24,105 nt of DNA from the IMG/VR virus record IMGVR_UViG_3300025671_000525, positions 1 through 24,105 of that record; one strand, written 5' to 3'. Under the pieces are notes generated by a model. That model was not told the origin of the DNA. It did not search any database and worked only from the letters and a program-made list of their open reading frames with translations. Below, one piece after another: positions 437 through 24,084 of the stretch. This stretch comes from a virus. How positions within the stretch are numbered: position 1 is the stretch's first letter; the number at the start of each line of letters is the position of its first letter. The translations under genes and the position numbers were made by a program.

Positions 437-709
437 TTAGCCGAAGGCCTTCGGCGGCTGCTTCACTGCAACCTTGGGAACGTCCGGCTTCCTTTCCGTA
501 ACCCTGCGAAGGGTTAGGGTTTTGCGATAGGCGTTAAACACCGCCTCAACATCCGCATCTTTAGGAAGGCCTTTGATTGTCACGTTAGGCTGGCATGCGC
601 CAATGTTAAGCCAATGGCCGGCGACGATGTTGCCAGCGGGCTGCAGGGCGTTCCCGACAGTGAAGGCATCCAGAGGGATCGAGATGACGATATCGACTTT
701 CTTAGTCAT
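437..709 (-). CDS. Hypothetical protein, 90 residues
   Basis: Unrecognised leftward gene. The frame extends upstream to 763, but the ATG at 707-709 is preferred because GGAG sits nine bases before it. The product begins MTKKVDIVISIPLDAF, is mildly hydrophobic in its first half, and ends in a basic, proline-rich tail (KPDVPKVAVKQPPKAFG). No signal peptide, membrane span or catalytic motif is obvious. The gene is visibly richer in G+C than the rightward genes, and a terminator-like hairpin follows it. It is transcribed away from the repeat region at 827-1217, so that region may hold its promoter. It could be an early accessory protein, but no function can be assigned. Confidence 0.5.
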   Translation of the reverse strand: MTKKVDIVISIPLDAFTVGNALQPAGNIVAGHWLNIGACQPNVTIKGLPKDADVEAVFNAYRKTLTLRRVTERKPDVPKVAVKQPPKAFG

Positions 710-826
710 GGGCGTTTGCTCCAATGATGTCGCTGCTTGATTGCGGCTAACGGGGACATTCAACCCTGGTGCTGTGGCGAAAATAAGGCAACAAGGGATT
801 TTTTTTGTTTACCTTTTGTTCCTCTA

Positions 827-981
827 GGTTTGTTCCCGGTTTGTTCTCTTAGGTTTGTTCCCGGTTTGTTCTCGGTTTGTTTTCTTAGGTTTGTTCCCGG
901 TTTGTTCTCGGTTTGTTTTCTTAGGTTTGTTCCCGGTTTGTTCTCGGTTTGTTCTCTTAGGTTTGTTCCCGGTTTGTTCTC
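827..981 (+). repeat. Left array: 13 copies of an 11-bp repeat in 36-bp higher-order units
   Basis: Thirteen units of GGTTTGTTCNC (third-last base C, T or, twice, TTC variant) start at 827, 838, 852, 863, 874, 888, 899, 910, 924, 935, 946, 960 and 971. They are organised as three perfect-length 36-bp blocks at 852-887, 888-923 and 924-959, each three 11-mers plus TTA. Shortened blocks flank them on both sides. The 11-bp spacing is close to one helical turn, so bound proteins would lie on nearly one face of the DNA. Because 36 is a multiple of three, open frames cross the array, but their peptides are low-complexity and start without a ribosome binding site. The array is treated as non-coding. 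An iteron-type replication origin or a multi-site operator are the leading readings. Confidence 0.85.
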
Positions 982-988
982 TTTATAT

Positions 989-1034
989 GACTCTGAACAT
1001 GAACATGACTCTGAACATGAACATGACTTTGAAC
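989..1034 (+). repeat. 18-bp direct repeats at the array centre
   Basis: GACTCTGAACATGAACAT occurs at 989-1006 and again at 1007-1024, followed by a partial third copy with one change (GACTTTGAAC, 1025-1034). The GAACAT core resembles the GAACAAAC core of the right array. The block sits exactly between the left array and its inverted counterpart, where a cruciform or RNA hairpin would have its loop. Confidence 0.8.
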
Positions 1035-1217
1035 AAACCGGGAACAAACCGGGAACAAACCGTGAACAAACCGTGAACAAACCAAGAGAACAAAAGGTGA
1101 ACACTCATATGAGAACAAACCGTGAACAAACCATGAATAAACTAAAAGAACAAACCGTGAACAAACCGGGAACACACATAAGAGAACAAAGAATGATCAT
1201 GGATATGGGAACAAACC
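1031..1217 (-). repeat. Right array: degenerate inverted copies of the 11-bp repeat
   Basis: The same 11-mer appears here as its reverse complement (GNGAACAAACC). Tandem copies run from 1031 to 1083. More copies lie at 1111-1132 and 1147-1167, with a last one at 1207-1217. Decayed versions such as ATGAATAAACT lie between. With the left array this makes an inverted pair of about 150-190 bp arms around a short centre. The right arm is clearly more degenerate and lacks the neat 36-bp phasing. In single-stranded form the arms could pair extensively. Confidence 0.8.
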
Positions 1218-1289
1218 ATGAATAAACATTGTTCTTGACTGTGATTATTATGCAACACTAGGTTATATCATTGTTTATTTCATTGGTCT

Positions 1290-1491: not shown

Positions 1492-2139
1492 ATGACAAAG
1501 CTCAGTGTCCTTAAGGCTTCTGTAGGTTCTGATCTAGGCCGGCCAAGCAAGATGCCGGGTTATGCATGGGGTATCAGTGCAAAGCTTTGTAAGACTGGGT
1601 CTAAACTAGCTAAAATAAAGGGTTCTGTATGCCACAAGTGCTATGCACTTCGTGGAAACTATCTCTATCAATCCGTGGTAACGTCCCATAAAAACCGGAT
1701 CGATGGTTATGACCGGGATAACATTGGATGGCGCAACGCTATGATTGAGTTAATCCGGAAGCGTATTCCTGAAAGTGCCGAAGAGGATGATAAATATTTC
1801 AGGATATTTGACAGCGGTGATCTTCAGTCGGAAGCCATGCTTCGGGATTGGATCTGGATTGCTGAGCAATTGCCGGACATTAAGTTCTGGCTTCCGACTA
1901 AAGAATATGCCCTGATCGATGGTTTCACTGGAGCATTTCCAGACAACCTTGTCATCAGGGTTTCATCGCCCAAGGTCGACCAGAAACCGTTGAAAGCCTA
2001 TCAATTCACAAGCACAGTTCACGACAAAGAAGAGCCACATGGTTTTGTCTGCCGTGCTTACGAAAGAGATGGCAAGTGTGGTGATTGCCGGGCCTGCTGG
2101 TCTCGGCTTGTATCCAATGTTTCGTATCCCAAGCACTAA
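1492..2139 (+). CDS. GP88-family phage protein
   Basis: A 215-residue protein resembling the phage GP88 family (named after mycobacteriophage gene product 88), whose biochemical role is not established. Recognisable features are a Lys/Gly-rich N-terminus with a conserved-looking Cys33 region and the VCHKCYALRGNY block (Cys47, Cys50). The central FDSGDLQSEAMLRDW segment follows, and the C-terminal cluster CGDCRACW has two more closely spaced cysteines. The paired CxxC motifs suggest metal binding, possibly Zn or an Fe-S cluster; this is inference. The start has an ideal GGAGG five bases upstream (1482-1486). It is the first gene after the divergent control region, so it is probably expressed early and strongly. 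Confidence 0.8.
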   Translation: MTKLSVLKASVGSDLGRPSKMPGYAWGISAKLCKTGSKLAKIKGSVCHKCYALRGNYLYQSVVTSHKNRIDGYDRDNIGWRNAMIELIRKRIPESAEEDDKYFRIFDSGDLQSEAMLRDWIWIAEQLPDIKFWLPTKEYALIDGFTGAFPDNLVIRVSSPKVDQKPLKAYQFTSTVHDKEEPHGFVCRAYERDGKCGDCRACWSRLVSNVSYPKH

Positions 2140-5316: not shown

Positions 5317-5799
5317 ATGAACATCTTCTTTCTTGACAGAGATCCGAATACCTGTGCCAGATACCATGTTGACAAGCATGCATCCAAGATGGTACTGGAG
5401 ACTGCACAGCTTCTCTCCACAGCACATCACCTTTGTGATTCCCCGTTTGTATTCTCGGTCTACCGGATGACACACCGGAATCATCCAAGTGCCATCTGGG
5501 CACGGGAGTCTAAGGCACATTACGAGTGGTTATATGGTCTGTTCATGGAACTCAACATGGAGTTCAAGCATAGGTATGGGAAGGATCACCTGTCATATAC
5601 CAAGCTTGACCAGTATCTCTCCCACGTACCACCGGGTATTCAAGAGGAACCATGGCTCAGGGATCCACCCCAGTGCATGCCATCTGAATACCATGATGAA
5701 GACACGGTTAAGGCTTATCGTTCCTATTACATCCATGGTAAGAAGCATCTGCATGCCTATACCAACAGGGAATATCCGGATTGGATCATGGACGCTTAG
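5317..5799 (+). CDS. Conserved phage protein with CARYH-DKH motif
   Basis: A 160-residue protein of a type often seen in phage genomes but without an assigned function. Its N-terminus carries the characteristic pattern: MNIFFLDRDPNTCARYH, then VDKHASKMVLETAQLLSTAHH, rich in Cys, His, Asp and Lys residues that may form a metal or catalytic site. The middle has THRNHPSAIWARES and HYEWLYGLF, and the C-terminus has AYRSYYIHGK. No signal peptide or membrane span is visible. The ribosome binding site is weak (GAGAGG about 12 bases upstream). Its stop codon TAG lies inside the acceptor stem of the tRNA gene, so the mRNA and the tRNA compete or are processed from one transcript. Confidence 0.75.
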   Translation: MNIFFLDRDPNTCARYHVDKHASKMVLETAQLLSTAHHLCDSPFVFSVYRMTHRNHPSAIWARESKAHYEWLYGLFMELNMEFKHRYGKDHLSYTKLDQYLSHVPPGIQEEPWLRDPPQCMPSEYHDEDTVKAYRSYYIHGKKHLHAYTNREYPDWIMDA

Positions 5800-5866
5800 C
5801 TCAGCCGGATAGAGCAACAGCCTTCTAAGCTGTGGGTCAGTGGTTCGAGTCCACTAGCGTCCACCA
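5790..5866 (+). tRNA. tRNA-Arg (anticodon UCU), CCA encoded
   Basis: A full cloverleaf is readable. The acceptor GGACGCT (5790-5796) pairs with AGCGTCC (5856-5862). The D-arm is GCTC/GAGC and the anticodon stem ACAGC/GCTGT, around loop CTTCTAA with anticodon TCT at 5824-5826. The variable loop has five bases, and the T-arm is AGTGG/CCACT with TTCGAGT. Discriminator A5863 is followed by an encoded CCA (5864-5866). The tRNA reads AGA/AGG, codons that are frequent in the surrounding phage genes, so supplementing a rare host tRNA is the likely role. Its first ten bases overlap the end of the preceding gene. Confidence 0.95.
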
Positions 5867-6177: not shown

Positions 6178-7881
6178 ATGTCTAAAATTTCTGAAGTCAC
6201 ACACTCGAAGTTCATCAGACACTCACCATGTGAATCATGTGGAAGCAGTGATGCCAATGCAATCTATGAAGATCAGTTATCAAACGGGGATGTGTCCATC
6301 AGGACCTTCTGTTTCTCCTGCGAAAAGATAACATTCCCTGACCAAGAGAGGCACTCCAGTATGAACAACTACGTAGCACCTGTGTCTAAAGGGCGTACCG
6401 ATACAAGCGCCTATCAGTTCTCTGATATTTCAGATCGTAAGATTAATCGACAAACAGCAGAAATGTTTGGAGTCCGGGTATCCAAGGATACCAATGGTAG
6501 TATTATTTCCCATGTCTATCCCTTCTATGAAAAGACAGGGCAGAAGATTGTTGCATACAAGAAGCGTGTCTGTTCTGACAAGAGCTTCTCTGTCATCAGC
6601 CCGGAGAAAGAGGTCCATCATGGTTTTGATCAAGCCACCCTCTTTGGTCAGCAGCTATTCAATGGCACCGGGAAATACATTACCATCACCGAAGGTGAAC
6701 TGGATGCCATGGCTACGTACCAGATGCTTGGTTCAAAGTGGCCTGTCGTTTCTCTACGTTCCGGGGCTCAGGGTGCTGAAAGAGACATCAGAAAAAATCT
6801 GGAGTTCTTTAACTCTTATGACAAGGTAGTTCTCTGCCTTGACAATGATGAACCCGGAAAGAAGGCAGCCCAGAAGCTATCCGAAATCTTCGAGATCGGT
6901 AAGTGTCTGATCATGCCGATGACTCGTAAGGACCCCTGTGAATATCTACAGGCCGGGGATAGCGCCTCGTTCACCCGAGAGTGGTGGAGGGCAAAGCCTC
7001 TGTCCCCTGATGGTATTGTCTCAGGCGAGGATGTCTGGGACCTTGTCTCGACTGAACTTGAGAACAACTCGATCTCCTACCCATGGGAAGACCTGAACAA
7101 GGTAACCTACGGCATTCGATGTGGTGAGCTTGTAACTATTACGGCAGGCTCTGGTATCGGCAAGAGCGCCATCATGAGGGAGATCATCTATCACATTCTG
7201 AAAAACACAGAGGAAAATGTAGGGGCTCTCTTTATGGAGGAGAGCATCCGACGTACAGCACAGGGCCTGATGTCCATTGATGCGAACAAGCAGTTCCATC
7301 TGCCAACAACCGTGTACACTCAGGAAGAACTTAAGACAGCCTTCAAGAACACGGTCGGATGTGGCCGAGTCTATCTCTATGATCACTTTGGTTCATCTGA
7401 GATTGACAACATCATCTCCCGAATCAGGTACATGGCTAAAGGTCTGGAGTGCAAGTACGTATTCCTTGATCACATCTCGATCATTGTCTCCTCTCAGGAG
7501 AACGGGGATGAACGCAAGGCCCTTGATGAGATCATGACCAAGTTACGCATGCTGGTACAAGAGACCCACATCAGTCTCTTCGTTGTCTCCCACCTGAAGC
7601 GTCCACAGAATGGAGGAGGCCATGAGATCGGTGGTGTCACAACCCTGTCTCAGCTTAGAGGCTCCGCAGGTATTGCCCAGCTATCTGACATCGTTCTAGG
7701 TCTGGAACGAAACTCACAGGATGATGACCCCGTTGTCCGGAACACCACCATCGTGCGTGTCCTGAAGAACCGGTTTTCCGGGGAGACTGGGCCTACATCC
7801 CGCCTTGTCTGGAGCAAGGAAACCGGGCGGCTCAATGAAACATTTGAAGATCTTGAAGCAGACATCGAGGAGGCTTTCTAA
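6178..7881 (+). CDS. T7-type bifunctional DNA primase-helicase
   Basis: A 567-residue protein with the complete T7 gp4 layout. The N-terminal zinc-binding domain has Cys18-x2-Cys21 and Cys45-x2-Cys48. The TOPRIM primase domain has E172 in TEGELDA and D222-x-D224 in CLDNDEPGKKAA. The C-terminal RecA-like helicase has Walker A GSGIGKS (324-330) and Walker B FLDH with D431. The length equals that of T7 gp4. The tail is acidic and ends in Phe (DIEEAF), like the T7 helicase tail that contacts the polymerase. It primes and unwinds at the replication fork. Its stop overlaps the next start by one base (TAATG), with GAGGAGG upstream serving that gene. Confidence 0.95.
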   Translation: MSKISEVTHSKFIRHSPCESCGSSDANAIYEDQLSNGDVSIRTFCFSCEKITFPDQERHSSMNNYVAPVSKGRTDTSAYQFSDISDRKINRQTAEMFGVRVSKDTNGSIISHVYPFYEKTGQKIVAYKKRVCSDKSFSVISPEKEVHHGFDQATLFGQQLFNGTGKYITITEGELDAMATYQMLGSKWPVVSLRSGAQGAERDIRKNLEFFNSYDKVVLCLDNDEPGKKAAQKLSEIFEIGKCLIMPMTRKDPCEYLQAGDSASFTREWWRAKPLSPDGIVSGEDVWDLVSTELENNSISYPWEDLNKVTYGIRCGELVTITAGSGIGKSAIMREIIYHILKNTEENVGALFMEESIRRTAQGLMSIDANKQFHLPTTVYTQEELKTAFKNTVGCGRVYLYDHFGSSEIDNIISRIRYMAKGLECKYVFLDHISIIVSSQENGDERKALDEIMTKLRMLVQETHISLFVVSHLKRPQNGGGHEIGGVTTLSQLRGSAGIAQLSDIVLGLERNSQDDDPVVRNTTIVRVLKNRFSGETGPTSRLVWSKETGRLNETFEDLEADIEEAF

Positions 7882-8867: not shown

Positions 8868-10530
8868 CATTGAGACTGACGATCTTAATGCCACAAAGAT
8901 TTACTGCATAATCCTGAGAAAGATTAATGGACTTCCTTCAAACAAAAAGTTATCATTTGAAGAACATGAGATATATACATATGCAGGAGGTCTTGGTTAT
9001 CCGTCTCTGAATGAGTTCAGAAAAAAATTCATCAAGGATCATGATGTTATTTTTATTGGACACAATCTGATTTCATTTGATATTCCTGTTATCAACAAGC
9101 TTCTCAATATGGATATCAAACTGAATCAAATTGAGGACACCCTGCTTCTATCTCAGCTTGATGACCCCCGTAAAAATGGAGGACACTCTCTGAAAAATTG
9201 GGGGCAGATCCTGAATTTTCCAAAGATTGAGTTTACTGATTTTAAATCAGGTCTGACTCAGGAAATGCTGACGTATTGTATGCAGGATGTTGATCTCAAT
9301 GGCAAAGTATGGATGGCCCTTGTTAATAAAGATATTCCCGATAACGTTATTGAGACTGAGAAGAAAGTTCGATACATAATTCATAAACAGGAAGAACATG
9401 GTTTCTGTCTTGATATGCCAAAGGTCATGGAGTTCTCCTCTTTTCTTTCTGACAATATCAATAAGATTGAACAGGAGCTACAGGAAATCTTTGAGCCTAC
9501 AACAATTCATCTAAAGACCAAGACAAAGATTATCCCTTTTAATCCCGGATCCCGACAGCAGATTGCGGATCGACTAATCAAACAATTTGGATGGAAACCA
9601 GATAAGTTTACAGAAACAGGGAAACCAATGGTTGATGAGAAAATTCTTCAGGACATCAACACATATGAATCCTTGAAGCTTGTTGATTACCTGACGCTTC
9701 AAAAGAGGAATGCCCAAGTCCAGTCGTGGATTAATGCTGCTGATGAGTCTAATCTTGTACATGGTCGTGTACATACACTTGGAACAGTTACTGGAAGAAT
9801 GACACATTCAAATCCAAACATGGCTCAGGTTCCAAGTACACGGGCACCCTATGGATATCAATGCCGTGAGGTTTGGATCCCCAAAGAAAAAGACCATATT
9901 CTTCTAGGGTGTGATGCAAAGTCACTGGAACTTCGCTGTCTTGCTCATTACATGGATGATGAAGATTTTTCAAAAGAGGTAATCGAGGGAGACATCCATA
10001 CCTTCAATCAGAACAAGGCTGGTTTGGAGACACGAGATCAGGCAAAAACATTCATCTATGCCCTGATCTATGGTGCTGGCCCTGCAAAGATTGGGGCGAT
10101 TGTCGGAGGATCGGCGAATGATGGAAAGAGATTAATCGATAACTTCATGTCATCCCTACCGAAACTTCAGCGGCTGAAACAGAGGGTTGACCTGACGGTT
10201 CAGAAGCAGTACATTCCGGGCTTGGACGGTCGCCGAGTTCCGGTGGAACACCAGCACACAGGACTCAACTATCTTCTTCAGGGAGCCGGGGCTATCATCT
10301 GCAAGCATTGGTTAATCCAAATGTACTACATTGCCTTCAAGAAATCATTAAGAGCAACACCCATTGCTAACATCCATGATGAAATGCAATGGGAAGTTCA
10401 TGAGAATGACGTGGATAAACTAACAGGAGCAGCCCATGAAGCTATAAAGAATGTCAGAGAAATTCTTAAATTTCGTTGCGATCTTGGATGCGATGTCAAG
10501 ACAGGAAAAAATTGGGCCGAAACCCATTGA
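8845..10530 (+). CDS. T7-like family A DNA polymerase with 3'-5' exonuclease
   Basis: 561 residues from the ATG at 8845 (GGAAGG ten bases upstream; a TTG at 8839 is possible). The exonuclease domain has D8 and E10 in LDIETDD, a GHNLISFD block and YCMQDVDLNG. Polymerase motif A is DAKSLELR starting at D357. Motif B is R397, K401, Y405 and Y409 in RDQAKTFIYALIYGAG, nearly identical to T7. Motif C is His511-Asp-Glu513. Tyr405 sits where E. coli Pol I has Phe762. It is much shorter than T7 gp5 (704 residues), mainly between the exonuclease and palm. It replicates the phage genome with the primase-helicase. Its final codons overlap the -35 element for the SSB gene. Confidence 0.95.
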   Translation: MTSRYLLDIETDDLNATKIYCIILRKINGLPSNKKLSFEEHEIYTYAGGLGYPSLNEFRKKFIKDHDVIFIGHNLISFDIPVINKLLNMDIKLNQIEDTLLLSQLDDPRKNGGHSLKNWGQILNFPKIEFTDFKSGLTQEMLTYCMQDVDLNGKVWMALVNKDIPDNVIETEKKVRYIIHKQEEHGFCLDMPKVMEFSSFLSDNINKIEQELQEIFEPTTIHLKTKTKIIPFNPGSRQQIADRLIKQFGWKPDKFTETGKPMVDEKILQDINTYESLKLVDYLTLQKRNAQVQSWINAADESNLVHGRVHTLGTVTGRMTHSNPNMAQVPSTRAPYGYQCREVWIPKEKDHILLGCDAKSLELRCLAHYMDDEDFSKEVIEGDIHTFNQNKAGLETRDQAKTFIYALIYGAGPAKIGAIVGGSANDGKRLIDNFMSSLPKLQRLKQRVDLTVQKQYIPGLDGRRVPVEHQHTGLNYLLQGAGAIICKHWLIQMYYIAFKKSLRATPIANIHDEMQWEVHENDVDKLTGAAHEAIKNVREILKFRCDLGCDVKTGKNWAETH

Positions 10531-17698: not shown

Positions 17699-19963
17699 AT
17701 GACAACCTCTTATAAAATCAAACTAACATCAGACATTACTGTTCTAACCTCTTTCAAGGTTGATGACTATCATACATATGCCTCCAGATTCTTAGAATCA
17801 TGGGTAAAGTTCTGGCCAAAGAATATCAGGCTTACGGCATACTATAATGGGGGAAAGCTTCCAAAAGATGTTATCAAGGCAAAGAACATCAATTATGTAT
17901 CACTGGATAAGAATCAACAGCTTGTTAGTTTCAAGGAACGAAACGCTCAGTTTAATGGGGGCACTCCTTATAACTATCGTATGGATGCTGTAAAGTTCTC
18001 ACATAAGGTTTTCGCCATCTGTGACCATGTAAATAAGATGTCAGTCAAAGATGAGATGGGATGGCTTGTCTGGATTGATGCGGATGTTCTGACGACCAAA
18101 AGGATTGAACCATCTTTTCTAAACAGTATTTTTCCAGACACTTCCGACATTGTCCATCTTGGACGTGCCGGAGTTATTGATTATTCCGAGACAGGATTTC
18201 TCGGTTTCAATCTGACATATAACAAGGCACACGACTTCCTCAGAGACTGGAGATCCCTATATACAACCAATGAAATCCTTGGACTAAGGGAATGGACTGA
18301 TGCGTTCTCATTTGAAAGACTCCTCAATATCCACAAGAATCATGGAATTACAGCGCACAATCTATCGCCACATGCGGCCTCTCTTGAGGCTTTTGATTAC
18401 TCTCCTCTCACAGAATATTTCATTCATTTCAAGGGTGGCAGAAAGAGCATTCTCAATTCTCCGTATGAACCCGGTCCTAACCGTTATCGGGACATTGAGA
18501 AGTTCATCCAACACTATAGCAGAACAAAGCTTCTTGAAGTCGGAACTTGGAATGGAAAGAGGGCACTCCGTCTCATTACGGCTGCGCTTCAGAATTCTGA
18601 TTCTGTCCATTATGTTGGACTGGACCTATTTGAAGACGGTAATGAAGAACTGGATAAGATCGAGGGTAATGTAAAGCAGAGAACATACCTGCATAATGTA
18701 AAGGCCCTGCTTAACACATTCTCCAAGGATGCTCTTCTTGAGGGTAAGAAGGTATCCTTTGAACTAGTCAAGGGTAATTCACGGGAGACTCTCCCGGAAA
18801 TTCTATCCAGATACACCCCTGACTTTGCCTACATTGACGGTGGTCATTCTGTTGAAACCATCAGGTCAGACTACGAGAACCTGAAGAATGTTCCGGTGAT
18901 TGTCTTTGATGATTACTACAAGAAGGATGGGGACGGGAGCCTCAGCTTTGACACGGAACTTTATGGGTGCAACCAGATCGTAGACAAGGAACTACCGGAG
19001 GATTATCATAAGGGTGTCATCCCATCCCGTGATGCTGTCCAAGGTGGCGGTATTACCTGTCTGGCATACGCCTGCAATTCAACTTTGCCAGCCCCGCCAG
19101 ACTTTGAGAACATCCAAGTTCCTATTAAGGTTCAGCCAAAGGATTGTGTCCCTGATGAATATATCCATAACAACATCAAGGCCAATCATCTTATCATCAA
19201 GAAATGGGTATCAAACAGATTCCGTTGGAATACAGAGACTGCCGTCTGTGTATCAGCCGGTCCGACAATCAAGAAGGACTTGGAGAAGATCCGGGATCTC
19301 TATCACGAGGGTCACAAGATTGTATGTGTCAAGCATTCTCATAATTTCCTTCTGGATAATGGGATCATTCCATGGGGCTGCGTCATCCTTGATCCACGGG
19401 AACTGGACGGCATCTCGACACATGGGGTGAAAAGACGGGATCTCCTTGAAGAGCCGTATCCATATACCTATTATTTTGTGGCAAGCATGACAGACCCCTC
19501 AGTTACCTATCACCTGAATAAGAAGGGTGCCAAGATTATCGGTTGGGATGCCTATTCAAATGCTGTCATGACTTTCAAGGATATCCATGACAGGATGATG
19601 ATCACCGGAGGAACCTGTGCTGCCATGCGGGCTATTGCCCTGATGCACACTTTTGGATTCCGGTCCTTTCATCTGTTTGGCTATGATGCCTGCATGGACC
19701 CAGAGATTCCAGTTGATCTGACAGAGAAGGATGCCTCCGGTCGCCAGAAGTATCTACAGGTTACGGTAGGTGGGCAAAACTTCATCACAACTGGAGAGCT
19801 TCTGGCCATGGGTCAGGACATGGAACAGTTCTTCCAGAAAGATGATGATATCGAATACCATGTCTATGGTGAAGGAGGCATGGGTTATGCCCTTTGGCAG
19901 ATTGAGAAAGCCAAGAAGAACTTTGATTCATATCACTCATTCCTTAAAATCAGTGGAGAATAA
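17699..19963 (+). CDS. Three-domain protein: glycosyltransferase + SAM methyltransferase + DUF115
   Basis: A 754-residue fusion. Residues about 1-255 form a GT-A-like domain with Asp127-Ala-Asp129 (WIDADVLTTK) and a late FIHFKGG. Residues about 265-450 form a class I SAM methyltransferase domain: LLEVGTWNG (278-286), YVGLDLF, then AYIDGGHS around D380-H383 and VFDDYYK. Residues about 490-754 resemble DUF115/MAF, with CVSAGPTIKKD (GP at 521-522) and FGYDACMD near 662. MAF proteins transfer nonulosonic sugars to flagellin in bacteria. Together this suggests building and methylating a glycan on one polypeptide. The target is unknown. It is directly joined to the GT8-like gene upstream. No membrane span is seen, so it acts in the cytoplasm. 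Confidence 0.8.
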   Translation: MTTSYKIKLTSDITVLTSFKVDDYHTYASRFLESWVKFWPKNIRLTAYYNGGKLPKDVIKAKNINYVSLDKNQQLVSFKERNAQFNGGTPYNYRMDAVKFSHKVFAICDHVNKMSVKDEMGWLVWIDADVLTTKRIEPSFLNSIFPDTSDIVHLGRAGVIDYSETGFLGFNLTYNKAHDFLRDWRSLYTTNEILGLREWTDAFSFERLLNIHKNHGITAHNLSPHAASLEAFDYSPLTEYFIHFKGGRKSILNSPYEPGPNRYRDIEKFIQHYSRTKLLEVGTWNGKRALRLITAALQNSDSVHYVGLDLFEDGNEELDKIEGNVKQRTYLHNVKALLNTFSKDALLEGKKVSFELVKGNSRETLPEILSRYTPDFAYIDGGHSVETIRSDYENLKNVPVIVFDDYYKKDGDGSLSFDTELYGCNQIVDKELPEDYHKGVIPSRDAVQGGGITCLAYACNSTLPAPPDFENIQVPIKVQPKDCVPDEYIHNNIKANHLIIKKWVSNRFRWNTETAVCVSAGPTIKKDLEKIRDLYHEGHKIVCVKHSHNFLLDNGIIPWGCVILDPRELDGISTHGVKRRDLLEEPYPYTYYFVASMTDPSVTYHLNKKGAKIIGWDAYSNAVMTFKDIHDRMMITGGTCAAMRAIALMHTFGFRSFHLFGYDACMDPEIPVDLTEKDASGRQKYLQVTVGGQNFITTGELLAMGQDMEQFFQKDDDIEYHVYGEGGMGYALWQIEKAKKNFDSYHSFLKISGE

Positions 19964-20658: not shown

Positions 20659-20767
20659 CATCTGCTCCATCATGGAGCCCATCCTGATCTCAAAGGATGA
20701 TATACTGACAGACGAGACTGCCAGACAGATTCTAATTCATAACGAATTTTATGACAGGGTTTGTTAG
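20582..20767 (+). CDS. Rz1-like outer-membrane lipoprotein (o-spanin), overlapping the Rz-like gene
   Basis: A 61-residue lipoprotein begun at the ATG at 20582 in the +1 frame inside the Rz-like gene, with AGGAAAA upstream. The signal peptide MKYAWMSMVCLMLMLGAC has a lipobox Leu15-Gly-Ala-Cys18, so the mature protein starts at Cys18. The mature part carries further cysteines (ICSIMEP and the C-terminal DRVC) that may form disulfides. It has 77 bases of overlap with the Rz-like gene and extends past it. Its stop overlaps the stop of the convergent leftward gene by 4 bases. A Gram-negative host is implied. Confidence 0.75.
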   Translation: MKYAWMSMVCLMLMLGACSTNGAGTDICSIMEPILISKDDILTDETARQILIHNEFYDRVC

Positions 20768-23700
20768 GTCTGAGGCTGATAACGCCAGCCGAATTGACCA
20801 AGAATGTTCTCCTGATACTCCCCTCGAATATTCTTTGGCAGATCTGTAAGAGGAACACGAACACCTTCTCTTCTCAGGAAATCATCAAGGGCATATCTGG
20901 CAATTGTCTTGGGATCAAAGGAGAATGGCTCTGATGGATTTTCTCGTCTGCTCTCGGCCACAGCCATCTGAATTGCTCTGAGGTCTTCCTGAAGTTCCCT
21001 GACGGCTTCTTGGTCACCCTCGGCCCGAGCCTCATACAGATCAACCATAGTGTTTCTGTATTCATTCCTGAATCTTTCACCACGTCTGTTATAGTTGCGC
21101 TCCATCATGTTCTGCTGATACTGGGAATTGCGGGCTTCAACGACGGCTGTCGGAGTGAAGCCTGATGCCTGCATGATCGTGTCAAAGAAATCAATGCCTC
21201 CGAATGCTTCAACAGGAAGCTCACGTCCGGCCAGAGTGACTCTCCGAGATCCCATGGAGGCAAGGGCTATGTTTCGGAATACAGGAGGAAGAAGCTCCAT
21301 GAGCGCAATGTCTTCATCCCCATTATTATATCGACGGAAAAAGTTACTCGCTTGTCCCAACATACCACCGGCAGGACCAAGGAAATCTGGGAGGGATGCT
21401 TCTTGATTTCCAAGTACATTATTGAAAAAACTACGTGGGCCTTCGATACCAGTTCTCTTACCAATTTCAACACCAGCAAGAGAGGGAAGACCACGGTAAG
21501 CCAGAGCGGCTGATATTTCCTGTGGCAGACCAAATGAATTAAACATGTCAGTCAGCATCTTTTCCGGATCTTCTTCATCACCGCCAAAAGCACTGATGAT
21601 CATGCTGATCAAATCTCCGATAATACCAGCAAGAGGCATACCAATAATGCCACCACCGGCGATGAAAGCCATGCTGGAAATGAGGGCCATCTTCTGATAA
21701 ATCTTGCGAGTTTCAGGATCCAGTTTTCGAGGATTTCCTTGGGCATCAATACCGGATGCACCAACGATGCCAGCATATAGAGCCCCAAAGAAATAACGCA
21801 TGACATTAAACTGATATGGGAGGAACTGGGTGACCACGCCACCGATTGGTCCCCGGTTATATTCGGGCCTCTCTGTCTTATCAAATTTGAACTGGGCTTT
21901 TTCAACAGAGAACTTGGTGAAGTTCTCGGCATTGAATTCACCAAACTTATTAGTCCCCTCGGCTTCATAGATGCGACGGGCAGCCTCCGGGTTTTTCTTA
22001 TAGGTCTCATAGGCGGCAATGGCCGTGGCAACTCTGTTGAATGTCTCAACCCATGCAAAGGCAAATCCTGCACCTCTCACGGCAATATCAAAGGCACGAC
22101 CAGCTTTTGTATTTTTGCGCAATCCCTGCTGTGTAAGCTCGCCTGTAAAATCTGATAGCATGATGGGGTTAAGACTTGGCTGAATGCTCTTCAGCATGTC
22201 AAAGATATCCTGCGGCATTCCATCAGGCTTTGTCGTAAAGTCAAAAGGCTTGTTGGCAAAATCTAGGAATTGAAGAACCCGTGACATTCCGACTTTTTCT
22301 TGGGATGCAAAAGGCATTTTCTTCGTCAACATTGTGGCCAGCTTGACTCCCTTGATAAGAGCCTGTGTACCTTCGGCGGGATTCTTTGCTATTGCCATAA
22401 TATAAGGCATTGTTGTATGTACAAGACCAACAAGGTTAACCATGGCAGATGAGAGGTTGTAGCCAAGCCACCACACAAAGGCTGCTCTCTTAAACTTATC
22501 TGCGACCCTATGTTCCTCCGTCAGATAGCCATCTTTCCCCCAGACTTTCTCAACTTGTTGAATGACAGGTTCAGGGATAGATCTGTCACTCTTTGCTTTC
22601 TTGATTTCTTTCTGAAGCTGAATGTTGTTAGGCATTCTGGAAATAAGGTTGGCCTGTGATGAAACATAGTTATTAAAGTTTTCACTCAGGTATGTTGATC
22701 GATTATCACGGGTCAGATACCCATATACTGATTTTGATTTTGGCAGAAGCCTTGTGCCTACTGACTTGGAGATCTTGCCAATGAATTTTGATCTCAGATC
22801 TCTCAGGGCATCCTTATCCATCTTGGAAGAAAGTTCAGTAGACCCAATGGCAGAATCAAAGATCATCTGGATCATGAATGAATCAGAGGCATCAATGTTC
22901 TTTCTGATGAAGTTATCATAGGTTACTTCAAAGACATCCCCGTCTTTCTCATAGTCCGGGTTTTCAAGGAAGAACTTCTTCTGAAATTCTTGAGCATTAC
23001 GACGGAGAGACTTGATAGTAATCCCGGTATCATTAATTACCTTGAAGCCAGTTTGTTCAACGCCACGGGCATCCTTGAATTTATATTTAAAACCATATCG
23101 ACCATTACGGATTGATGGGAAATACATCAGTCTCTTCTGCTTCTTAGCCTCATTGTAAATTTTTAATGTATCTTCAATGTCTTTGACACGCTTGGTTTGA
23201 TTATTTTGATTTAATTGATCCAGCTTGGACTTCAAAGATTCTGGATTAGTCTTAATTTCATCCAGAGTGATATTAAGATAATTGTCCTTTGTTAGTTCCT
23301 CATTAATGGCAGCAAGATTAATAAGGACATAGGCATCAAGTTTTTCATCAAAGAGATAATCAAAAATCTTTCGTGTGTCTTCCGCAATCTTGGCAATGGG
23401 GGTATTAGGATCAATGCGGTATGTTTGATCCTGTAGGGAGGGATCTTGATGGATAATGTCCTGCCCAAAGAAATCAGTAATATTTAAATCTTCCCCGGAA
23501 AGAATCTTTCTGATTGTCTCAGTATTGGTGACGCCCATGGCACGAAGATCTTGTTCGGTCAGGGTCTCTTCCGTGGATACCTGAAGGATTCTATTGACAG
23601 CATCCAGAAAACCATTAAGCGTTGTTTTCTCTGTCTGATTTAGTTTTTCAAGAAATGCAGTCCCGGCAATTTCCTCAACTTTGAGAATGACATCATCAAA

Positions 23701-24084
23701 CTTGGCCTGAATCTTTCGTGTAATCTGGGCAATAGGCTTAAGACCCTCATACTTTGCAAAGAAGTCACCCATTGTTCCAGTCAGTCCGTAGAGATTATAA
23801 AAAAGATCTCCCAGCCATGACCTTATGTTACTTGGTGTTTGACCCTGCATAAATTTATTTATTGCAGTGGTGCTCTTCAGAGCCCTTGTTGGAGCTTGTG
23901 CATTATTGGCATAAATCTTATCCAGATTCTTTGACTCAACGATCAGGGGTTTTCTGGCTTCAGAGGGTCTGGCCAACTCTCCGGAAGTGAATGCATCAAA
24001 GATTTCATCGATGCTCTGGTACTCGGAGTTATTTTTCTTGGCTACCCCGGCCAAGGACTTGAGACCTTTCAAGAGTTTGTCCAT
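20764..24084 (-). CDS. Large virion-associated protein, candidate internal/ejection protein
   Basis: A leftward protein of 1106 residues from the ATG at 24084. The frame stays open (KGFIRRI) to the window edge and the ribosome binding site is poor, so the true start may lie outside. The N-terminal half is charged and helical. Two hydrophobic regions stand out: AFVWWLGYNLSSAMVNLVGL around residue 530 and a glycine-rich stretch (MAFIAGGGIIGMPLAGIIG) around 800-835. A charged coiled coil (RGERFRNEYRNTMVDL) lies near 1000-1040. Such size and membrane-active segments suit an internal core protein ejected with DNA, like T7 gp16. It also recalls large polyvalent-protein-associated domains. This is inference; no enzyme motif was found. 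Confidence 0.6.
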   Translation of the reverse strand: MDKLLKGLKSLAGVAKKNNSEYQSIDEIFDAFTSGELARPSEARKPLIVESKNLDKIYANNAQAPTRALKSTTAINKFMQGQTPSNIRSWLGDLFYNLYGLTGTMGDFFAKYEGLKPIAQITRKIQAKFDDVILKVEEIAGTAFLEKLNQTEKTTLNGFLDAVNRILQVSTEETLTEQDLRAMGVTNTETIRKILSGEDLNITDFFGQDIIHQDPSLQDQTYRIDPNTPIAKIAEDTRKIFDYLFDEKLDAYVLINLAAINEELTKDNYLNITLDEIKTNPESLKSKLDQLNQNNQTKRVKDIEDTLKIYNEAKKQKRLMYFPSIRNGRYGFKYKFKDARGVEQTGFKVINDTGITIKSLRRNAQEFQKKFFLENPDYEKDGDVFEVTYDNFIRKNIDASDSFMIQMIFDSAIGSTELSSKMDKDALRDLRSKFIGKISKSVGTRLLPKSKSVYGYLTRDNRSTYLSENFNNYVSSQANLISRMPNNIQLQKEIKKAKSDRSIPEPVIQQVEKVWGKDGYLTEEHRVADKFKRAAFVWWLGYNLSSAMVNLVGLVHTTMPYIMAIAKNPAEGTQALIKGVKLATMLTKKMPFASQEKVGMSRVLQFLDFANKPFDFTTKPDGMPQDIFDMLKSIQPSLNPIMLSDFTGELTQQGLRKNTKAGRAFDIAVRGAGFAFAWVETFNRVATAIAAYETYKKNPEAARRIYEAEGTNKFGEFNAENFTKFSVEKAQFKFDKTERPEYNRGPIGGVVTQFLPYQFNVMRYFFGALYAGIVGASGIDAQGNPRKLDPETRKIYQKMALISSMAFIAGGGIIGMPLAGIIGDLISMIISAFGGDEEDPEKMLTDMFNSFGLPQEISAALAYRGLPSLAGVEIGKRTGIEGPRSFFNNVLGNQEASLPDFLGPAGGMLGQASNFFRRYNNGDEDIALMELLPPVFRNIALASMGSRRVTLAGRELPVEAFGGIDFFDTIMQASGFTPTAVVEARNSQYQQNMMERNYNRRGERFRNEYRNTMVDLYEARAEGDQEAVRELQEDLRAIQMAVAESRRENPSEPFSFDPKTIARYALDDFLRREGVRVPLTDLPKNIRGEYQENILGQFGWRYQPQT

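Follow-up and report, generated by a model that had tools for sequence, protein, structure and literature searches.

A tandem GAAC-N7-GAAC array between divergent genes of an HMO-2011-type phage as a candidate landing site for host LexA

What purpose might a dense cluster of short repeats serve when it separates two divergent gene modules of a phage? Such a cluster lies near one end of the window, i.e. the whole 24,105-nucleotide stretch of IMG/VR record IMGVR_UViG_3300025671_000525 that was analysed, and an earlier note, made from the sequence alone, had proposed a phage origin, a multi-site operator or a giant cruciform. The unit GAAC-N7-GAAC, counted on either strand, is present in 14 exact copies, all of them within the array (832-1173) and none elsewhere in the 24,105 bases, compared with 0.55 on average, and never more than 3, in 100 dinucleotide shuffles; the array is real. 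The place originally given for it (827-1217) is correct, its true extent being slightly longer, at about 815-1228. Two inverted arms flank an 18-bp repeat and together form a long imperfect inverted repeat, across which the AT skew passes from -0.38 to +0.31. The left arm (815-982, minus strand) holds six strict boxes, starting at 832, 857, 893, 929, 940 and 965 and arranged in 36-bp blocks of 11+25 or 11+11+14 bp, and its heptamer TTTGTTC recurs in 12 exact copies (815-973) spaced by 11, 14 or 25 bp, alongside TTTGTTT variants. The centre (987-1022, plus strand) consists of ATGACTCTGAACATGAAC (18 bp) in two exact copies, at 987-1004 and 1005-1022. Eight further strict boxes make up the right arm (1031-1228, plus strand), at 1031, 1042, 1053, 1064, 1088, 1113, 1148 and 1159, followed by degenerate copies at 1184 and 1209; here the heptamer GAACAAA is found 12 times exactly (1031-1209), in addition to degenerate copies. 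The left arm is the more uniform of the two, in agreement with the view that it has been homogenised. The right arm had been called decayed, which suits its degenerate copies but not its strict boxes, since it carries 8 of the 14 and the left arm 6.

The array occupies a divergent control region, as had been recognised from the outset. On one side is a leftward 90-aa gene of no assigned function (437-709, minus strand), whose homologues occur in 17 array-bearing loci, the window being one of them; on the other, the first rightward gene past the array belongs to the GP88 family (1492-2139, plus strand; PF17338, phrog_1392). Beyond GP88 the rightward module encodes a DUF932 protein, thymidylate synthase, a primase/helicase, an A-family DNA polymerase, a Cas4-type exonuclease and ribonucleotide reductase, and the opposite module begins with a leftward ORF at 20,764. 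The rightward module also encodes a protein of 754 aa (17699-19963, plus strand) that combines MptE-like and methyltransferase domains, and a tRNA-Arg (TCT) gene is located at 5790-5866; the leftward ORF (20764-24084, minus strand; 1106 aa) weakly resembles the terminal parts of very long phage proteins (phrog_11358; phrog_10089, DarB-like). The gene order is that of Roseobacter phage CRP-603, which is of the HMO-2011 type. The best matches of the ribonucleotide reductase are to Roseobacter phage CRP-403 and Puniceispirillum phage HMO-2011 (both 63.4%), followed by Lentibacter and further Roseobacter phages, and those of GP88 and the primase mostly point in the same direction. Gene order and best protein matches therefore indicate a phage of the HMO-2011 type, a widespread marine group (PMC9038755), in place of the T7-like phage assumed at first; a scan of 20 window proteins, a subset of the ORFs, revealed no RNA polymerase gene. 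The closest cultured phages by ribonucleotide reductase and GP88 infect Roseobacter, Puniceispirillum, Lentibacter, Pelagibacter and Caulobacter, and the host is likely to be an alphaproteobacterium. Judged from relatives of 53-56 kb, the window is a fragment of a genome that is likely near 55 kb.

Comparison with related contigs shows which parts of the array endure. The same array is found in L027 and L046, contigs that may share one sample: the 480 bp spanning it are identical in both, and outside the array 12 of 3968 sites distinguish L046 from the window. Because these copies are identical while L046 differs elsewhere, the array is not an assembly error. In L052, whose GP88 is 82% identical, the right arm is kept and the left arm is absent. 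At a GP88 identity of about 72% (for those with a complete gene), eight loci (L054-L058, L060, L061 and L066) carry six discrete GAACN7GAAC boxes spaced 30-37 bp apart, again without a left arm. In an alignment of L054-L061 the invariant columns number 48 of 48 in the GAAC tetramers, 38 of 42 in the spacers and 86 of 94 in the gaps, and column conservation barely discriminates between them. Two arms are set on either side of an AT-rich tract in L022, L038, L048 and L050, and other arrays are one-sided or of mixed orientation. The inverted symmetry is consequently variable, and what persists in the divergent gap is the GAACN7GAAC boxes. A giant cruciform or other structural element, or else an artefact of assembly, would account for the long imperfect inverted repeat of the window; however, a cruciform is not a conserved function here, because the left arm is lost in L052 and L054-L061 while the boxes are retained, and an artefact is at odds with the recurrence of the same array in two other contigs. 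We regard both as highly improbable. The search of relatives that the earlier note had suggested has a divided outcome: relatives from metagenomes conserve the array, whereas it is absent from the cultured HMO-2011-type phages examined (HMO-2011, CRP-2, CRP-13, CRP-603 and HTVC033P), which, like other alphaproteobacterial phages, show background counts only.

Many arrays, unusually often, are situated no more than about 1 kb from a contig end (the window, L008, L009, L018, L024, L029, L031, L045, L048, L050, L111, L112, L117 and L118), which could be explained by repeats breaking assemblies or by nearby genome ends.

If the boxes are the durable element, which protein would read them? The alphaproteobacterial LexA (SOS) box has the published form GTTCN7GTTC/GAACN7GAAC (PMC3091678, PMC12700426), and the array unit fits this direct repeat in all 14 exact copies. 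As a positive control, the regions upstream of 20 alpha-type lexA genes were examined; every one carried a box of this type, as did 17 of 30 recA loci. Across 25 arrays, neighbouring GAACs on one strand are most often 11 apart (211 cases), and N7 pairs account for 314 of the 353 GAACs. An 11-mer duplicated in tandem would give this 11-bp spacing as well; that the pair is the unit is better supported by the discrete boxes of L054-L061. The spacers point the same way. When phage heptamers are counted once per array, a purine follows the first GAAC in 154 of 155, as it does in 30 of 30 host heptamers, versus 12 of 29 boxes in control phages; scoring with a position weight matrix gives an AUC of 0.91 (p 1e-12; per-array p 9e-9). 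Phage spacers hence resemble those of host LexA boxes and not random ones.

This similarity has a limit that bears on another explanation, namely that the array is an operator or landing array for a regulator encoded by the phage itself. The phage spacers have a consensus, AAACCGT, that is more tightly defined than known LexA boxes, as would be expected of a dedicated protein, and its CCGT half is without a host counterpart, host LexA boxes showing no CG preference at positions 5-6. Against such a regulator, spacer base composition tracks that of alphaproteobacterial LexA boxes, no DNA-binding protein was seen to be common to the array loci and Loktanella phage pCB2051-A (see below), and neither an integrase nor an S24 (LexA/CI-type) peptidase was detected in 20 array contigs, several of them partial; a LexA-like repressor or integrase of phage origin was accordingly dropped as a candidate for these contigs. 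We consider a phage-encoded regulator quite unlikely. Because no integrase or S24 protein was found, the array phages look non-integrating and devoid of a LexA-like protein of their own, which favours host LexA as the binder.

Is the exact phage box also used by a host? The pattern GAACAAACC[AG]TGAAC was rejected as a general host box, being present in 5 of 385 alphaproteobacterial genomes versus 5 of 369 in the class of a Marinobacter. In one of these alphaproteobacterial genomes (G278, 2.0 Mb), the match follows a TATAGT-like hexamer where a DinB-like polymerase gene begins. The best matches of the G278 gene are DNA polymerase IV models, below their cut-offs, and Y-family polymerases are classic SOS genes. 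The box contains the ATG of this gene, and its presence may therefore possibly reflect chance start-codon context. In the G278 family, whose genomes are small, recA boxes begin with GAACAAA in 14 of 19 cases, compared with none of 30 boxes from diverse alphaproteobacteria, and arrays L011, L012, L033 and L036 have the identical GAACAAAAAAAGAAC a few bases past TATAAT; the family was chosen for its exact match, and only the recA result is independent of that choice.

The phased layout of the repeats also recalls a replication origin. Iteron origins, such as those of lambda and of plasmids, consist of phased direct repeats, sometimes adjoining AT-rich DNA, and in this explanation a phage or host initiator would bind the repeats and open an adjacent AT-rich tract. 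The 11-bp phasing, the location at the divergence point of early genes and the AT-rich (TATA)n tracts found beside or between the arrays of L022, L038, L052 and L054 are all compatible with such a role; the window, however, has only a short TTTATAT as its own AT-rich element. Moreover, the cumulative GC-skew minimum, proposed earlier as a check, does not fall at the array within the 24-kb window, a partial genome, and the scanned window proteins include a DnaB-like primase/helicase and an A-family DNA polymerase but no dedicated iteron-binding initiator. The unit of the discrete-box relatives is the pair and not the 11-mer, and a motif common to otherwise unrelated phages would demand a shared initiator. 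The locus differs in these respects from known iteron origins, and we consider an origin unlikely.

How widely the motif is shared was assessed in viral and cellular collections. Tandem GGTTTGTTCNNGGTTTGTTC was retrieved in 48 stretches of the viral collection, many with at least 4 boxes, and 59 loci in total have at least 4 boxes, many from lineages that differ in terminases and gene content; a second viral search pattern also picked up some loci that may be due to chance. Among the cultured phages tested, three boxes (GAACAAACCATGAAC) lie at 56705-56749 of Loktanella phage pCB2051-A (Casjensviridae), whose detectable matches to proteins of the array loci are confined to thymidylate synthase, ribonucleotide reductase and one match that is local only. 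A further 16 phage records, cultured or complete, showed box counts at background. Across 257 Gb of bacterial and archaeal genomes the tandem pattern gave 43 scattered stretches, with no alphaproteobacterium named among them, and it was discarded as a feature of bacterial chromosomes; that of Paenibacillus foliorum (L067, L075, L076, L079) has several copies of it. A plasmid search returned nothing convincing.

This spread across lineages also bears on a role in packaging, in which the array would be a pac or cos site whose phased repeats are wrapped by the terminase small subunit. A small-subunit gene does adjoin the array in many other contigs (in L022 it is about 1.8 kb off), but the adjacent small terminases are of different families (phrog_51, phrog_1482) while the motif is one and the same. 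In addition, about 15 kb, measured across the record ends, separate the pCB2051-A array from the large-terminase gene, and G867, a relative of 53 kb, has its array in the middle of the contig. A packaging site is, in our estimation, very unlikely.

Other motifs accompany the boxes. Palindromes resembling parS (GTTTCACGTGAAAC), one to three per locus, are found among or close to the GAAC boxes of 13 loci (L009, L017, L020, L024, L025, L028, L031, L034, L035, L041, L043, L045 and L051), and none was found in the window. A ParB encoded by the phages themselves was set aside, as no ParB_N gene was present in the 15 contigs searched, of which several are short fragments. Apart from its main array, the contig of L113 (G879) has five GAACAGACCGAGAAC boxes with an exact 18-bp period at 7440-7526.

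Adjoining the last half-sites of the window is a candidate rightward promoter/operator (1223-1257, plus strand), with TAAACA-17-TATTAT at 1223-1251 and TTGACTGTGATTATTATGCAACA at 1235-1257 (plus strand), the core of which is found again next to the arrays of relatives. The promoter and terminator scan was at chance level (two promoter-like sequences found, 1.5 expected). A second recurrent motif, TGTGACATnnnnTGCAACA, has the window form TGTGATTATTATGCAACA at 1240-1257, is often preceded by TTGAC and is also located near the arrays of L022, L038, L052, L054, L113 and L128. A Fur/Mur-box-like TGCGAATGCAACTAAGAATCATTCGCAT is present at 353-380 of the window, and similar sequence is repeated in L052 (about 2290-2345) and L054 (about 9075-9170).

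Taken on motif, position and distribution, the array is probably a landing site for host LexA, acting as a multi-site operator, as a LexA sponge or as both, and the operator proposed at first is thereby supported as one part of the explanation. Host LexA dimers would fill the array by binding GAACAAACCGTGAAC and, as long as the genome is in single copy, would hold down or delay the divergent flanking promoters. Cleavage of LexA in the host SOS response, or multiplication of the sites by phage replication, would then exhaust LexA, which may free the phage promoters and, whether as by-product or as aim, derepress host SOS genes. About 97% of SOS promoters in Caulobacter have one LexA box (PMC12700426), and with a box number so far above this single box titration is likely to matter; binding, the direction of its effect and host identity are all inferred. 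Pelagiphage HTVC027P induces host SOS genes (PMC12753301), and a connection with the array was rejected, HTVC027P being without one.

Arrays of host-regulator sites have a precedent in alphaproteobacterial phages. CtrA sites have the form TTAA-N7-TTAA, and the GAACN7GAAC repeat of the present array makes it an analogue and not a member of that class. In the CtrA-site arrays, associated with 'lytic deferment', binding has been demonstrated by gel shift (PMC9437464). The two systems are alike in that dense host-regulator sites are restricted to one non-coding control region (intergenic or terminal in the CtrA phages) and have arisen independently in unrelated alphaproteobacterial phages; they differ in motif, in the regulator (LexA and SOS, as we infer here, versus CtrA and the cell cycle) and in the strict 11-bp tandem phasing of the present array. 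LexA-controlled phages such as GIL01, whose control by LexA is mentioned in PMC9437464, likewise use host LexA, the presumed regulator here, through sites in antirepressor, co-repressor or lytic-gene promoters; in contrast, the window has about 14 tandem direct-repeat boxes, and neither integrase nor S24 repressor was found in the array contigs. Phi29, also described in PMC9437464, is a virulent phage with sites for the host regulator Spo0A and with entrapment by Spo0J, a chromosome-segregation protein of the host, to which the parS-like sites of some array contigs offer a parallel, although host, regulator and arrangement are different and the window is without a parS-like site. A full-text literature search of partial coverage returned no report of LexA-box arrays in alphaproteobacterial phages, and LexA, SOS and promoters go unmentioned in the survey of HMO-2011-type phages.

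A broader proposal, which we advance tentatively and hold to be doubtful, is that many unrelated, apparently non-integrating marine alphaproteobacterial phages have independently built LexA arrays as copy-number-sensitive SOS switches, to which a subgroup has added parS sites. Replicating phage DNA would soak up LexA, turning on the host SOS response and releasing the phage promoters, and the addition of host parS (ParB) sites would turn the array region into a general platform on which host proteins of chromosome maintenance dock.

The motif itself offers a host-prediction signal for uncultured phages. Should LexA indeed bind, the SOS repressor would join CtrA as a host regulator that alphaproteobacterial phages tap via dense arrays, suggesting as a rule that phages devoid of an integrase and of a repressor of their own may read the state of the host through multi-site platforms. 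It would also provide a testable route by which a virulent phage could switch the host SOS response by titration, and phage take-over would be tied to the SOS alarm of the host, or the alarm itself switched by uptake of its repressor.
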